Origin: Desulfobotulus pelophilus
GTDB lineage: Bacteria; Desulfobacterota; Desulfobacteria; Desulfobacterales; ASO4-4
Direction of reading: 5' to 3'
DNA length: 64,000 nt
Assembly (NCBI RefSeq): GCF_026155325.1
Contig: NZ_JAPFPW010000002.1
Location: forward strand, 310,001-374,000
The notes beneath the pieces are model-generated. The model was not told where the DNA came from and ran no database searches. It was given only the letters and a program-made list of their open reading frames with translations. Positions 4,690-11,848 of the stretch are shown piece after piece; position 1 is the stretch's first letter; each line of letters begins with the position of its first letter. A program made the translations under genes and the position numbers.

Positions 4690-5547
4690 GTGAGCTGGCA
4701 GATACATATTTTGGCTAATGGCCGCTTTTCCATACGTTTTCGTACTCAATGGGGGGGGGATCTTCTGCCTTCCATGGAAAATATCCCCAGCAGTATTTTT
4801 CTTGCGTATTCTGCATCGGGGCTGGTTCTGGTGGATACGGGTTTTGACCCTGAAGATGTAGGCGGTCATGGATCTTTCGCGGCACAGAAAAGAACCGAAT
4901 CTCTGGAGGAGTTGCTGAAAAGTCTGGGCCTTGTGCCGGAAGATGTCGGTGATGTGATCATGACCCATCTGCACTGGGATCATACGGCAGGGATGCGGCT
5001 TTTCCCCCATGCCCGTTTCCATGTTCAGGCCGATGCCTTCCGGGCTTTTTTATGTCTGAAGCCCAATGAAGAAACTTATTACCGGCCTCAACACTGGCTT
5101 CCACTGCTGGATCGCATGGTGCTCATCGAAGGAGACAAAGAAATTGTACCGGGGATTCGGGTGCGGCGTACGGGAGGGCACTGCGCGGGGCATCAGGTCG
5201 TTCTCGTGGAAACGGAGGAGGGAACCCTTGCTCTGGCGGGAGATCTGCCCTTTGACTATTCCGGTCTCTGGTCGTCACTGCCTGCAGATTTTTGGGAGGA
5301 TTACCGTAGGTGCAAAGGGGAAAAAACAGGGTGGTCTGATGAACAGTGGAAAAGATTGCGGGCTTTTATGAAAAAAAACAAATTAATGGATGCGCCATGC
5401 GGAACAAGGGAAGTGAGTTTTTCGCGATTGCGCAGGGGGTGTGCCCGGATACTGCTGACCCATGATCCGGGGCCCTTTATCCTGACAGTGAAGAGCGGAA
5501 ACAGCCGGCCTGACAGCGGCAAGGGCAGCAGAAGGATGCTGCCCTGA
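4690..5547 (+). CDS. Metallo-beta-lactamase-fold hydrolase (N-acyl homoserine lactonase-like)
   Basis: 285 residues, GTG start after AAAGGAGG. The metal-binding motif HLHWDHTAG gives ligands H93, H95, D97 and H98. Further ligands are seen in GGHCAGHQ and in LAGDLPFD, and the last conserved His is in LLTHDPGP. The arrangement resembles the AttM/AiiA-type lactonase branch of the superfamily, but many such proteins are general hydrolases, so the substrate cannot be read from sequence. It has no signal peptide and is expected in the cytoplasm. It is convergent with the PurF-like gene, 7 bases apart. An 8-bp inverted repeat (5523-5530 with 5537-5544) over its last codons may help end transcription. 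Confidence 0.85.
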   Translation: MSWQIHILANGRFSIRFRTQWGGDLLPSMENIPSSIFLAYSASGLVLVDTGFDPEDVGGHGSFAAQKRTESLEELLKSLGLVPEDVGDVIMTHLHWDHTAGMRLFPHARFHVQADAFRAFLCLKPNEETYYRPQHWLPLLDRMVLIEGDKEIVPGIRVRRTGGHCAGHQVVLVETEEGTLALAGDLPFDYSGLWSSLPADFWEDYRRCKGEKTGWSDEQWKRLRAFMKKNKLMDAPCGTREVSFSRLRRGCARILLTHDPGPFILTVKSGNSRPDSGKGSRRMLP

Positions 5548-5554
5548 TGAAAAA

Positions 5555-6961
5555 TTAAAAGCCGAAACCTGATCCGTCCCAGCAGTGGGTGCAGAGTTTT
5601 TCTTTGGGTAGGCCGATGGCTGTCACCAGATCTTCCAAAGCCTGAAACTGTAAAGAAGTCAGTTCCATCCGTTGTTGAATCCATGCTGTCATTGCTTTGT
5701 TTTTTGGATCAGCGGCATTTGCGTATCGATGAAGATCCATGGCTTCATCCCCTTCAAGGGCGAGTATGGCTTTACGCCCGATGAGTTCCAGGGAAGAGCG
5801 CGAGCTGGAGAAATTAAGAAACTCGCAGGGGAATATCAGTGCGGGGCAGGCCACTCTCATGTGAACATGGCGGGCACCATAGGCACAGAGTACCCGTGCA
5901 TTGTCGGCGAGCTGGGTTCCCCGGACGATGGAATCATCCATGAGAACCATGGATTTTCCTTCGATCAGGCTGCGATTGGGGATCAGTTTCATGCGGGCGA
6001 CCAAAGAACGGGTTTTCTGGTTCTGGGGCATGAAGCTTCTCGGCCATGTGGGGGTATACTTGACAATGGGGCGCTGGTAGGGAATCCCTCGGGCATTGGC
6101 ATAGCCTACGGCATGACCGATGCCGGAATCCGGAATGCCGGCTGCAAAGTCTGCCGGAACCGTATCTTTTGCAGCCATGGCTGCGCCACAGCGGTAGCGG
6201 AATGCTTCCACGTTGATGCCTTCGTAACTGGAAGAAGGGTAGCCGTAGTAGACCCAGAGGAAAGAGCAAACCTGCATGGGCTCCTTTGCAGGAATACGAT
6301 CTTCCCAGCCTGTCGGACTGATGAAAATCGCTTCTCCCGGTCCGAGATCCCTGACTGGTTCATAGCCAAGATTTACAAAAGCACTGGATTCGGAAGAAAA
6401 AGCATAACCACCATCTCTCTGGCCGAGGATGAGTGGCGTTCTGCCAAGAAGATCCCTGCAGCCGTAAATGCCCTTTTCCGTCATCAGGATAAAGGTGCAG
6501 GAACCCTTGAGTTTTTCCTGTACGGCCAGAATTCCCGACTCAAAGGATTCTTCCGCACTGATGAGCATAGCCACAATTTCTGTGGGATTGATTTTGCCGG
6601 CGGAAGACTCACTGAAGGCATAGCGGGTTGAATGGGCTTTCTGGGCAAGGGTGTCAATGTTGGTTATTTTCCCAACGGTTACAAGGGCAAAACGTCCCAA
6701 GTGAGATGAAAAGACCATGGGTTGGGCATCCGTATCGCTGATGACTCCGATTCCCATATTGCCGGAAAAAAGACCTAGATCCGGTTCAAACTGGGTACGG
6801 AAATAGCTTGATTCCAGATTGTGGATTTTGCGGGTAAATCCCGATGGCCCGGCTACGGCCATGCCGCCCCGCCGGGTGCCGAGATGGGAAAGGTAGTCTG
6901 TTCCGTAAAAAAGGTCTCCCACACAATCTGTCTTCCGGGCCACGCCGAACACGCCCCCCAT
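5555..6961 (-). CDS. PurF-like amidophosphoribosyltransferase paralogue lacking the glutaminase cysteine
   Basis: 468 residues from the ATG at 6961, chosen because AGGAAGGGAG lies just upstream; an in-frame ATG 24 codons earlier has no such site. Overall it aligns with the Bacillus-type PurF. An N-terminal Ntn glutaminase-like domain (about 1-230) is followed by a phosphoribosyltransferase domain with the PRPP motif VLMDDSIVRGTQ at 339-350 and GIPDSG near 275. Cysteines expected to bind a 4Fe-4S cluster are in place (C232, C379, C457, C460). However, the processed enzyme should start with the nucleophile Cys, and here residue 2 is Gly (MGGVFGV). The oxyanion-hole region HNGN reads TVGK near 95-98. 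Glutamine-dependent activity is therefore unlikely; ammonia use or a different role is inferred. Its promoter lies between it and ilvL. Confidence 0.85.
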   Translation of the reverse strand: MGGVFGVARKTDCVGDLFYGTDYLSHLGTRRGGMAVAGPSGFTRKIHNLESSYFRTQFEPDLGLFSGNMGIGVISDTDAQPMVFSSHLGRFALVTVGKITNIDTLAQKAHSTRYAFSESSAGKINPTEIVAMLISAEESFESGILAVQEKLKGSCTFILMTEKGIYGCRDLLGRTPLILGQRDGGYAFSSESSAFVNLGYEPVRDLGPGEAIFISPTGWEDRIPAKEPMQVCSFLWVYYGYPSSSYEGINVEAFRYRCGAAMAAKDTVPADFAAGIPDSGIGHAVGYANARGIPYQRPIVKYTPTWPRSFMPQNQKTRSLVARMKLIPNRSLIEGKSMVLMDDSIVRGTQLADNARVLCAYGARHVHMRVACPALIFPCEFLNFSSSRSSLELIGRKAILALEGDEAMDLHRYANAADPKNKAMTAWIQQRMELTSLQFQALEDLVTAIGLPKEKLCTHCWDGSGFGF

Positions 6962-7152
6962 GATACTCCCTTCCTTACATGTTTTGCCGGTATGCTGTCT
7001 TTTCAGTCCCATTTTTTCAAAAGGGAATGGCAATGGTGGATTGGAATTTTTTGCTGGTGAACTTACATATCAGACAGGTGGCGTTATAGAATCCATTGGC
7101 TCTCAAGTACAGAAAAAAATATGAAGGTACGGATTTTTCATGCAAAAGAGTG

Positions 7153-7369: not shown

Positions 7370-7395
7370 GTTTTTCAAGCATGAAAGGAGTGACC

Positions 7396-9066
7396 ATGCG
7401 CAGCGGGCAAGTGAAGGACGGTATAGAGCGGGCTCCCCACAGATCCCTTTTCAAGGCCATGGGCTATACGGATGAGGAGATCCGGCGGCCTCTTATTGGT
7501 ATTGCCAATGCAGCCAACGATATTATTCCGGGTCATGTGCACCTCGATAAGATTGTGGAAGCTGTCAAGGCCGGAATTTACATGGCAGGCGGGCTTCCCG
7601 TAACCTTTGGTGTTATCGGTGTCTGTGACGGTATTGCCATGAATCATACGGGTATGCACTATTCCCTGGGAAGCCGGGAGCTGATTGCGGATACCATTGA
7701 GGTTATGGCCACGGCCCACGCCTTTGACGGTTTGGTCATGGTTCCCAACTGTGACAAAATCGTTCCGGGCATGCTCATGGCTGCTGCCCGCCTTGACCTG
7801 CCCACAGTGGTCATCAGTGGTGGTCCCATGCTGGCGGGCAGACACCCGGAGAAGCCTGGAACCAAGGTGGACTTGATTTCTGTTTTCGAAGCCGTCGGTG
7901 CGGTGAAGCGCGGTGCTATGGATGAGCGAGAGCTGGCCCTGATTGAAGATGCGGCCTGTCCTACCTGCGGCTCCTGTTCCGGTATGTTTACGGCTAATTC
8001 CATGAACTGTCTTACGGAAGTCATTGGCATGGGGCTTCCCGGTAATGGTACGGTACCTGCGGTCATGGCGGAGCGGCAGCGTATGGCCAAGTACGCGGGC
8101 ATGAAGGTGATGGAGCTTTTTGAGGCAGGTATTACCCCCCGCACCATCATGACGAAAAAGGCCTTTGAGAATGCCCTGGCTGTGGATATGGCTTTGGGAT
8201 GTTCCACGAATACCGTTCTGCATCTGCCGGCCATCGCAGGTGAAGCCGGGGTGCAGATTGATCTTGATATGATTAATGAGGTGAGTGCCCAAACTCCCCA
8301 TCTCTGCTCCTTAAGTCCCGGCGGCAAGGACCATATCGAAGATCTGAACCGTGCGGGCGGTATTTCAGCGGTGATGAAGGTTCTGGCCGATGCGGGACGG
8401 ATTCACGGAGACTGCATGACGGTTACGGGCAAAACCATTGCAGAGAATATTGCCGCAAGCCGGGTGCTGGATACGGAGGTGATACGGCCTCTGGATAACC
8501 CCTACCATGAGCAGGGAGGTCTTGCCGTTCTTTTCGGCAATCTGGCACCCGAAGGCTGTGTGGTGAAGCAGTCGGCGGTTCGGGATAAAATGATGGTCCA
8601 TGAAGGGCCTGCCCGTGTATTTAATTCCGAGGAAGCCGCTTCGGCAGCCATTATGGCAGGAGATATACGCAAAGGCGATGTGGTGGTGATCCGCTATGAA
8701 GGTCCTAAGGGTGGGCCCGGTATGCGGGAAATGCTGACTCCCACATCCACCATTGCGGGTATGGGGCTGGACGCGGACGTGGCCCTGATCACGGATGGTC
8801 GCTTTTCAGGTGGAACAAGGGGGGCCGCCATCGGGCATGTATCTCCCGAAGCCAGCAGTGGTGGAACCATTGCCTTTGTGGAAGAAGGAGACCTTATTGC
8901 CATTAACATTCCGGAGAAAAGTATTGTTCTCAGGGTGGGGGATGAGGTTCTCGCACAGAGGAAGGCCGTCTGGGTGCCGCCCCCACCCAAAATAACCAGA
9001 GGGTACATGGCCCGTTACAGCCAGAGGGTATCTTCCGCAAGCAGAGGTGCGGTGCTGGACGGGTAG
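7396..9066 (+). CDS. ilvD: Dihydroxy-acid dehydratase
   Basis: 556 residues, full length for the family. It dehydrates 2,3-dihydroxy-isovalerate and 2,3-dihydroxy-3-methylvalerate to the oxo acids of valine, leucine and isoleucine synthesis. IlvD/Edd signatures are evident: [11 protein letters not shown], the Fe-S cysteine cluster [15 protein letters not shown], and the C-terminal [12 protein letters not shown]. The ATG at 7396 is preferred over an in-frame ATG at 7381 because AAAGGAG (7384-7390) overlaps the earlier codons. First structural gene of the attenuated ilv operon, followed by ilvB 60 bases on. Confidence 0.98.
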
Positions 9067-11515: not shown

Positions 11516-11848
11516 ATGAAAAAAGCAGGTATTATCCGATGCCAGCAGACGGAGGATCTCTGTGCAGGAGCAACGGACTTCAAGGTGGCAGGGCAAGGTA
11601 AGCTTGCCTTTGAACAGACAGGCCCAGTGGAAGTGCTGGGTTTTCTTTCCTGTGGCGGATGTCCGGGAAAAAAGGCTGTGATGCGGGCAAAAATGATGGT
11701 GGATAAAGGTGCGGAGGTCATTGCTTTTGCTTCCTGTATCTCAAAGGGAAACCCCATTGATTTTGCCTGTCCCCACTTTGAAACCATGAAGGCAGCCGTG
11801 AGGAAAAAGCTTGGTCCGGATATTAAAATCCTTGATTATACCCACTGA
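11516..11848 (+). CDS. CGGC-domain protein
   Basis: 110 residues after a strong AAAGGAGG site. The segment FLSCGGCPGKKA carries the CGGC motif that names a small family found mostly in anaerobes. Other conserved-looking cysteines are in RCQQTEDLCAG, ASCISKGNP and FACPHF. The cysteine pattern suggests a metal- or cluster-binding redox protein; no reaction is established. It lies between the ilv and cimA transcripts with its own SD and is probably a separate unit. No signal peptide. Confidence 0.8.
   Translation: MKKAGIIRCQQTEDLCAGATDFKVAGQGKLAFEQTGPVEVLGFLSCGGCPGKKAVMRAKMMVDKGAEVIAFASCISKGNPIDFACPHFETMKAAVRKKLGPDIKILDYTH

Follow-up and report, generated by a model that had tools for sequence, protein, structure and literature searches.

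A 64,000-nucleotide stretch of the Desulfobotulus pelophilus genome (contig NZ_JAPFPW010000002.1, positions 310,001 to 374,000; hereafter the window) encodes a PurF paralogue that has no catalytic cysteine. Judged from the sequence, its glutaminase site is dead, and the loss spans the whole glutamine site and not merely the cysteine. The protein belongs to a group of Cys-less PurF-like proteins, labeled FAM here, which is common, is found in many phyla and makes up a single clade. Since the glutamine site is lost and the PRPP half of the protein is kept, free ammonia or an unfamiliar acceptor is the probable substrate. The explanation that we prefer, tentatively and with slightly less than even confidence, is that FAM is a PurF-derived phosphoribosyltransferase forming phosphoribosylamine from PRPP and free ammonia, and that a second carbamoyl-phosphate synthase large subunit, CarB2, is its glutaminase-less counterpart.

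In the scheme that we envisage, FAM would bind PRPP and then close an altered flexible loop, C1 would be aminated by free ammonia to give phosphoribosylamine, and the pseudo-glutaminase domain would stay as a structural or allosteric part. For pyrimidines and arginine, the corresponding enzyme working with ammonia would be CarB2. The pair would provide a glutamine-sparing entry to nucleotide synthesis in ammonia-rich anaerobes, beside the glutamine-dependent carA-carB-purF operon. FAM proteins are probably annotated as amidophosphoribosyltransferases, a name whose reference to glutamine is likely wrong, and misleading where the metabolism of gut Bacteroidales and sulfate reducers is modeled. 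If ammonia is indeed the substrate, organisms with FAM could start purine synthesis without glutamine, and those that also have CarB2 could do the same for pyrimidines; a new acceptor would instead mean an unrecognized branch of PRPP metabolism.

Table 1. Positions of the FAM gene, of its notable residues and of the related INT proteins
Feature	Position	Strand	Basis
Cys-less PurF-like protein (FAM), 468 aa plus stop	5555..6961	-	sequence, alignments, model
Shine-Dalgarno-like AAGGAAGGGAG, purine-rich, 5' of ATG	6966..6976	-	sequence read; function inferred
Gly2 codon at the place of catalytic Cys1	6956..6958	-	alignment to E. coli PurF
Residues 74-81 (ISDTDAQP), shortened; E. coli Arg73 glutamine loop deleted	6719..6742	-	alignment
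T95-V96-G97-K98, replacing the HNGN oxyanion segment	6668..6679	-	alignment
Cys232, counterpart of B. subtilis Fe-S ligand Cys236	6266..6268	-	alignment
Residues 301-312 (KYTPTWPRSFMP), altered PRTase flexible loop	6026..6061	-	alignment, model
Residues 339-349 (VLMDDSIVRGT), PRPP loop	5915..5947	-	alignments
Cys379, counterpart of B. subtilis Cys382	5825..5827	-	alignment
Cys457-T-H-Cys460, C-terminal Fe-S ligand pair	5582..5593	-	alignments
INT proteins	L117:2735-4111, L118:2738-4117, L119:3618-4952, L120:3328-4710

Residues lost and kept in the FAM proteins

The gene runs from an ATG at 6961 to a stop codon at 5555-5557 (Table 1). An earlier note on this DNA had its coordinates and residues right; the strand is corrected here to minus. 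On the plus strand, it is flanked by genes for a metallo-beta-lactamase-fold protein (4690-5547; Pfam PF00753) and for a protein that is ilvD-like by eye (7381-9066), neither of which looks like a purine gene or offers a functional hint for FAM. A small CGGC-domain protein (PF08821) is encoded at 11516-11848 of the window, within a run of genes that by eye resemble those for branched-chain amino acids.

Residues were compared, in E. coli numbering, across an alignment of E. coli PurF, 14 canonical PurFs, four proteins of the sister group INT and 61 FAM members. Gly2 of the window protein aligned with Cys1 of E. coli PurF, just as the earlier note had placed it, and the Cys1 position was occupied by Gly in 48 of the FAM rows and by Ser in 13. 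A script gathered a wider set of 121 FAM sequences. As L177 is a copy of another one with its end cut off, 120 of them are distinct, and one of these is truncated at its N-terminus, leaving 119 readable. Position 2 is Gly in 96 of them and Ser in the remaining 23, and Cys is never found. The conserved family with an altered nucleophile that the note had envisaged is thereby borne out, with Ser as a second state beside Gly; close homologues do not keep Cys.

The loss extends to the other residues of the glutamine site. Arg26 is replaced by Leu in 59 FAM rows, the window protein included, and by Met in two; Arg73-Thr76 of the E. coli protein are deleted; and Val, Ile or Ala stands at the place of Asn101. 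The E. coli HNGN segment (residues 100 to 103) aligned with TVGK, as had been read from the window alone. No consistent Asp was found at the place of Asp127, a poorly aligned column where the alignment is uncertain. His25 is present in all 61 rows. Across the protein, 58 positions are both near-invariant and specific to the family, and 28 of these fall within the first 207 residues, which is more than a mere relic would retain and counts against the ammonia reading.

The gene is under purifying selection within the genus, a result that favors the ammonia reading. The dN/dS ratios between the window protein and its counterparts in two congeners were 0.063 and 0.080, both with dS above 1, and the ratio between those two congeners was 0.031. 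An artefact or a decaying purF copy (base-calling error, wrong start codon or pseudogene) was rejected on the family alignment, the dN/dS values of 0.03-0.08 and the Shine-Dalgarno-like sequence at the ATG, and we regard it as extremely improbable. The base-calling error that the earlier note had allowed for is contradicted by the Gly or Ser of all 119 readable relatives; the open frame is full length, and the proteins form a clade of their own with maximal support.

The PRPP loop and its neighbors in the site fare differently. Tyr258, Arg332, Phe334, Asp367, Ser368, Arg371, Gly372 and Thr373 are invariant in the 61 FAM rows. The PRPP loop that had been recognized in the window protein belongs to a DDS-x-x-RGT motif found, together with Tyr258, in every row; the place of its first Asp is occupied by D in 44 rows and by E in the other 17. 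According to one report, the Asp-Asp-Ser of this loop and the counterpart of Tyr258 are important for activity in the plant enzyme (PMC7056826). Loss of the tested glutamine-site residues, combined with PRPP-site residues that are retained in all 61 rows, favors the ammonia reading. In its support, PMC3261824, citing Mei and Zalkin 1989, states that E. coli PurF without its cysteine still uses ammonia.

The flexible loop, on the other hand, has been rewritten, which speaks against simple use of ammonia. KNRYVGRTFI of E. coli reads KYTPTWPRSFM in the window protein, with Asn327, Arg328, Tyr329 and Val330 replaced by Thr, Pro, Thr and Trp. The new loop is itself conserved: 11 of the 12 positions of residues 301 to 312 are identical in at least 58 of the 61 rows. 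Elsewhere, Arg261 has become Tyr or Phe, Asp263 is lost, and Asp408 has become Phe or Tyr. All of these changes, and the 58 family-specific positions, would fit a phosphoribosyltransferase for a different acceptor, in which a new nucleophile is bound by the altered loop together with what used to be the glutaminase pocket, and the phosphoribosyl compound formed lies outside the purine pathway. We consider this unlikely, if a serious rival. It is favored by the canonical PurF that most FAM genomes already have and by the scarcity of purine genes next to FAM, and disfavored by the failure of our searches of FAM loci to find a pathway partner, carB being the one neighbor that recurs often across taxa. 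A more specific form, to which we likewise give only a minor share of our confidence, has the former glutaminase domain bind a new acceptor or effector and the KYTPTWPRSFMP loop form a new acceptor pocket, with a product that feeds or controls a pathway linked to the carA-less CarB2; FAM might, for example, take nitrogen or carbamate made by CarB2.

Cys232, Cys379, Cys457 and Cys460, which the earlier note had matched to the Fe-S site, are invariant in alignments of 28 and of 61 rows. The C-terminal motif CxxC[WFY] is present in 119 of the 121 collected sequences, and the other two stop at the edge of their locus. The place of Cys232 is presumably that of an Fe-S ligand, a role that we take from B. 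subtilis PurF. FAM proteins can thus be expected to hold a [4Fe-4S] cluster.

Origin, sister group and coexistence with canonical PurF

The AlphaFold2 model of the window protein, built on the 61-row alignment, had a mean pLDDT of 89.9, with values below 50 at residues 304 to 311. Its best PDB match in Foldseek was B. subtilis PurF (1ao0; TM-score 0.84 by query and 0.86 by target, E 2.9e-38), followed by relatives of that protein. Against the NCBIfam purF model TIGR01134, the window protein scored 204.3 bits, below the curated cut-off of 350 bits. FAM has the fold, the domain order, the PRPP loop and the four Fe-S cysteines in common with canonical PurF of the B. subtilis type (1ao0, 1gph; TIGR01134), but differs from it in lacking Cys1, Arg26, the Arg73 loop, Asn101 and Asp127, in its altered flexible loop and in its score below the cut-off.

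A maximum-likelihood tree was built from 44 proteins: 21 FAM members (of the 61 rows), the four INT proteins and 19 Cys-bearing PurFs, the latter being 17 of the 21 canonical loci fetched (without L162, L163, L171 and L175) together with L046 and L076. FAM formed one side of a branch with support of 100/100, and FAM plus INT were joined by a branch with support of 100/99. The family was present in 31 of 58 relatives of D. pelophilus, in 17 of 99 genomes sampled across the phylum and, as full-strength matches, in 2 of 118 Bacteroidota drawn evenly. A scan of genome contigs confirmed at least 593 FAM stretches, with up to two per gene. Metagenome-assembled genomes predominate among the best 80 of these loci, and the hosts are Bacteroidales and further Bacteroidota, Desulfobacterota, Lentisphaerota, Planctomycetota, Spirochaetes, Acidobacteria or Aminicenantes, Anaerolineae, Erysipelotrichaceae and a Lokiarchaeote. 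We take these host groups to be mostly anaerobes.

The INT proteins, four in number, were encountered by chance during genome searches and do not represent a systematic sample. They resemble FAM in lacking the Arg73 loop and Asn101, in having Gln at the place of Thr374 and in often lying next to CarB2. Unlike FAM, they retain Cys1 and Arg26, and their flexible loop has stayed more canonical; they scored 296 to 319 bits against TIGR01134. Seen through INT, the glutamine site would have been lost stepwise, and the same losses within the same clade favor the ammonia reading. A CarB2 sequence was found in all four INT genomes, next to the INT gene in three; in G042 it is a contig-end piece.

The best single hint that this clade makes phosphoribosylamine without glutamine comes from one draft genome, G042 (98% complete). 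Here INT was the sole PurF-like match above 40 bits, purD and CarB2 were present, and a search for carA gave no match. Because INT is apparently the only PurF of an organism that has purD, phosphoribosylamine is suggested as the ancestral product, which supports the use of ammonia and weighs against a different acceptor. Two further candidates were set aside: G088, as a second INT-only and carA-less genome, is 85% complete and of suspect assembly, and G076, as an INT-only genome, has a 33-residue fragment of canonical purF at a contig end. Fusions of CarB2 pieces with a methyltransferase and with a WecG-type domain in G088 (L210:3598-5817 and L211:3648-5165) probably stem from chimeric assembly.

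The second, canonical purF that the earlier note had suggested looking for was found in the D. pelophilus genome (L002:1471-2877; 512 bits against the cut-off of 350). It keeps the Cys, sits elsewhere than FAM, in a carA-carB-purF operon, and encodes a protein with 30% identity to the window protein. Among the 31 relatives with FAM, 29 have a second match that is a canonical PurF or a candidate for one; the exceptions, regarded as weak cases, are G023, which is 92% complete and also without purD over the cut-off, and G053, which is 84% complete. Thus, with a glutamine-type PurF in most FAM genomes, FAM is not needed for purine synthesis there, and this coexistence counts against the ammonia reading.

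Seven named Bacteroidales have no PurF over the TIGR01134 cut-off. FAM as the sole PurF of Bacteroidales was nevertheless rejected, since 630-aa proteins with a Cys-bearing N-terminus occur in G155 and G161. PurF matches also lie in frames of 630 to 641 aa in G159, G160, G162 and G163; in the metagenome-assembled genome G164, FAM alone was found at E 1e-15. Wherever Bacteroidales loci were read, the coexisting PurF was of this 630-aa form, which falls far under the cut-off. The one at L046:8491-10392 keeps the Cys, HNRGQ, GHLRYGT and the PRPP loop; those at L207:803-2692 and L218:4728-6611 share its N-terminus and lie in purF-carA-carB runs, extended in L218 to glmS-purF-carA-carB (by eye). 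It is thus a PurF homologue in Bacteroidales that also bear FAM but, unlike FAM, it retains the Cys (as seen in L046).

Cys-less relatives of PurF are not new as such. Brown et al. 2011 describe a crenarchaeal PurF' for which ammonia use was proposed but not tested there (PMC3261824). By that description, PurF' is like FAM a Cys-less paralogue beside a genuine PurF in the genome. Many PurF' carry Ala or Val instead of the Cys and are encoded near purF and other purine genes; FAM differs in having Gly or Ser there and in lying near carB2 or unrelated genes. Relative to the literature, what appears to be new is this clade of bacterial proteins, the gradual disappearance of the glutamine site that INT reveals and the CarB2 link, none of which was reported in the papers reached by our search, most subscription journals being outside its scope. 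A functional parallel is offered by animal carbamoyl-phosphate synthase 1, which has retained an inactive glutaminase portion and works with free ammonia. Its glutaminase is of the unrelated class I and its reaction is another one, so that the parallel is an analogy only.

Association with a second CarB

The commonest neighbor of FAM is a gene for the carbamoyl-phosphate synthase large subunit, found at 22 of 120 loci. In Desulfobacterota, this neighbor is a second carB, encoding CarB2, and not the carB of the carA-carB-purF operon (CarB1). CarB2 proteins were 66 to 85% identical to the search query, as opposed to 42 to 60%, and mostly 50 to 56%, for other CarB matches, and they exceeded both curated CarB cut-offs. 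In a FastTree phylogeny of 47 CarB proteins, the 33 CarB2 rows formed a group (support 0.90) separate from the CarB1 of the operon; the branch that adds the partial CarB2 of G157 had support of 0.55.

FAM and CarB2 tended to occur in the same genomes. The 58 relatives comprised 31 with FAM and 35 with CarB2: 25 had both, 6 FAM only, 10 CarB2 only and 17 neither (Fisher p 0.0011). The corresponding numbers in the 99-genome phylum sample were 12, 5, 18 and 64 (p 0.0002); the two tests share some genomes, and their p-values ignore phylogeny. Of the 118 Bacteroidota, only one genome had CarB2 (76% identity), and it belongs to the pair in which FAM matched at full strength. The two genes lay within 1 kb of each other in 14 of the 25 relatives with both, and were also adjacent in Victivallis (L069 and L217), G128, G091 and G093. 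The 14 pairs were arranged as carB2 then FAM (4), FAM then carB2 (3), divergently (6) or convergently (1).

No carA was found next to CarB2 in the loci read. By contrast with CarB2, carA and CarB1 adjoin the canonical purF in, e.g., G000 (the D. pelophilus genome), G012, G018 and G025, and by coordinates CarB1 directly precedes purF in several genomes. A hint from a motif scan that canonical purF rarely adjoins carB was dismissed as misleading, for the loci were short and the motif narrow, and the coordinates contradict it. Co-occurrence, adjacency and the missing carA all favor the preferred reading, with ammonia feeding both enzymes. One source states that the ammonia-using synthesis of carbamoyl phosphate in E. 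coli is carried by CarB, which agrees with this, but also that ammonia is effective with the E. coli enzyme only at very high concentration, which does not (PMC6245113).

The coupling is not a strict one. FAM is missing from 10 of the 35 relatives with CarB2, and CarB2 from 6 of the 31 with FAM. Desulfobacterota with FAM and without CarB2 include G077, G114, G102, G098 and G058. Outside this phylum, only 4 of 13 FAM genomes tested had CarB2 (G156, G157, G166 and G245), and it was absent from all seven Bacteroidales among them, from the Lokiarchaeote G158 and from G167. In D. pelophilus itself, CarB2 is on a different contig from FAM (L179:5200-8397, contig C7); in G154, which has no FAM, it forms a tandem with CarB1; and in L055 what lies opposite FAM is not CarB2 but a carA-carB pair of the ordinary kind. 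Moreover, carA was present in all 16 FAM genomes tested, and CarB2 could share CarA in trans. Each of these points weighs against the ammonia reading. CarB2 is widespread in Desulfobacterota (L179, L144, L136, L145, L148 and others), and G067 and G140 gave no other carB match.

The occurrence of the carB2 linkage in four arrangements would also suit a regulator, that is, a pseudo-amidotransferase that senses PRPP and Fe-S status and both binds and controls canonical PurF or carbamoyl-phosphate synthase with no turnover of its own. At a few loci FAM adjoins guaA (L032, L041 and L133, by eye) or a Cys-bearing purF (L046 and L076), as a regulator might. PurF is described as a tetramer in PMC7056826, and mixed assemblies of the two proteins may be possible. 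Retention of the catalytic-loop and PRPP-contact residues Arg332, Phe334 and Tyr258 in all 61 rows speaks against a regulator, and we rate such a role as improbable, somewhat below a different acceptor.

Few other purine genes stand beside FAM: in a motif scan, purF was next door at 2 of the 108 loci in which the FAM gene was picked out, some of these loci being cut by contig ends. The idea that FAM forms a conserved operon together with pepT- and gcvT-like genes was rejected, as these were seen in just six or seven loci, all of Bacteroidales. Rfam scans of 20 and of 8 FAM loci gave a single match, to a lysine riboswitch that lies upstream of FAM in L110, at a distance of about 5.5 kb. At two of the FAM-CarB2 loci, CarB2 adjoins a gene for a protein of about 550 aa (L131:11581-13218 and L145:12720-14378) that starts with a Cys cluster, CTLCRADC, in its N-terminal part and also contains a Glu_synthase domain (PF01645). 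These two proteins had no NCBIfam match, and their presence is a weak hint of a link to nitrogen metabolism.
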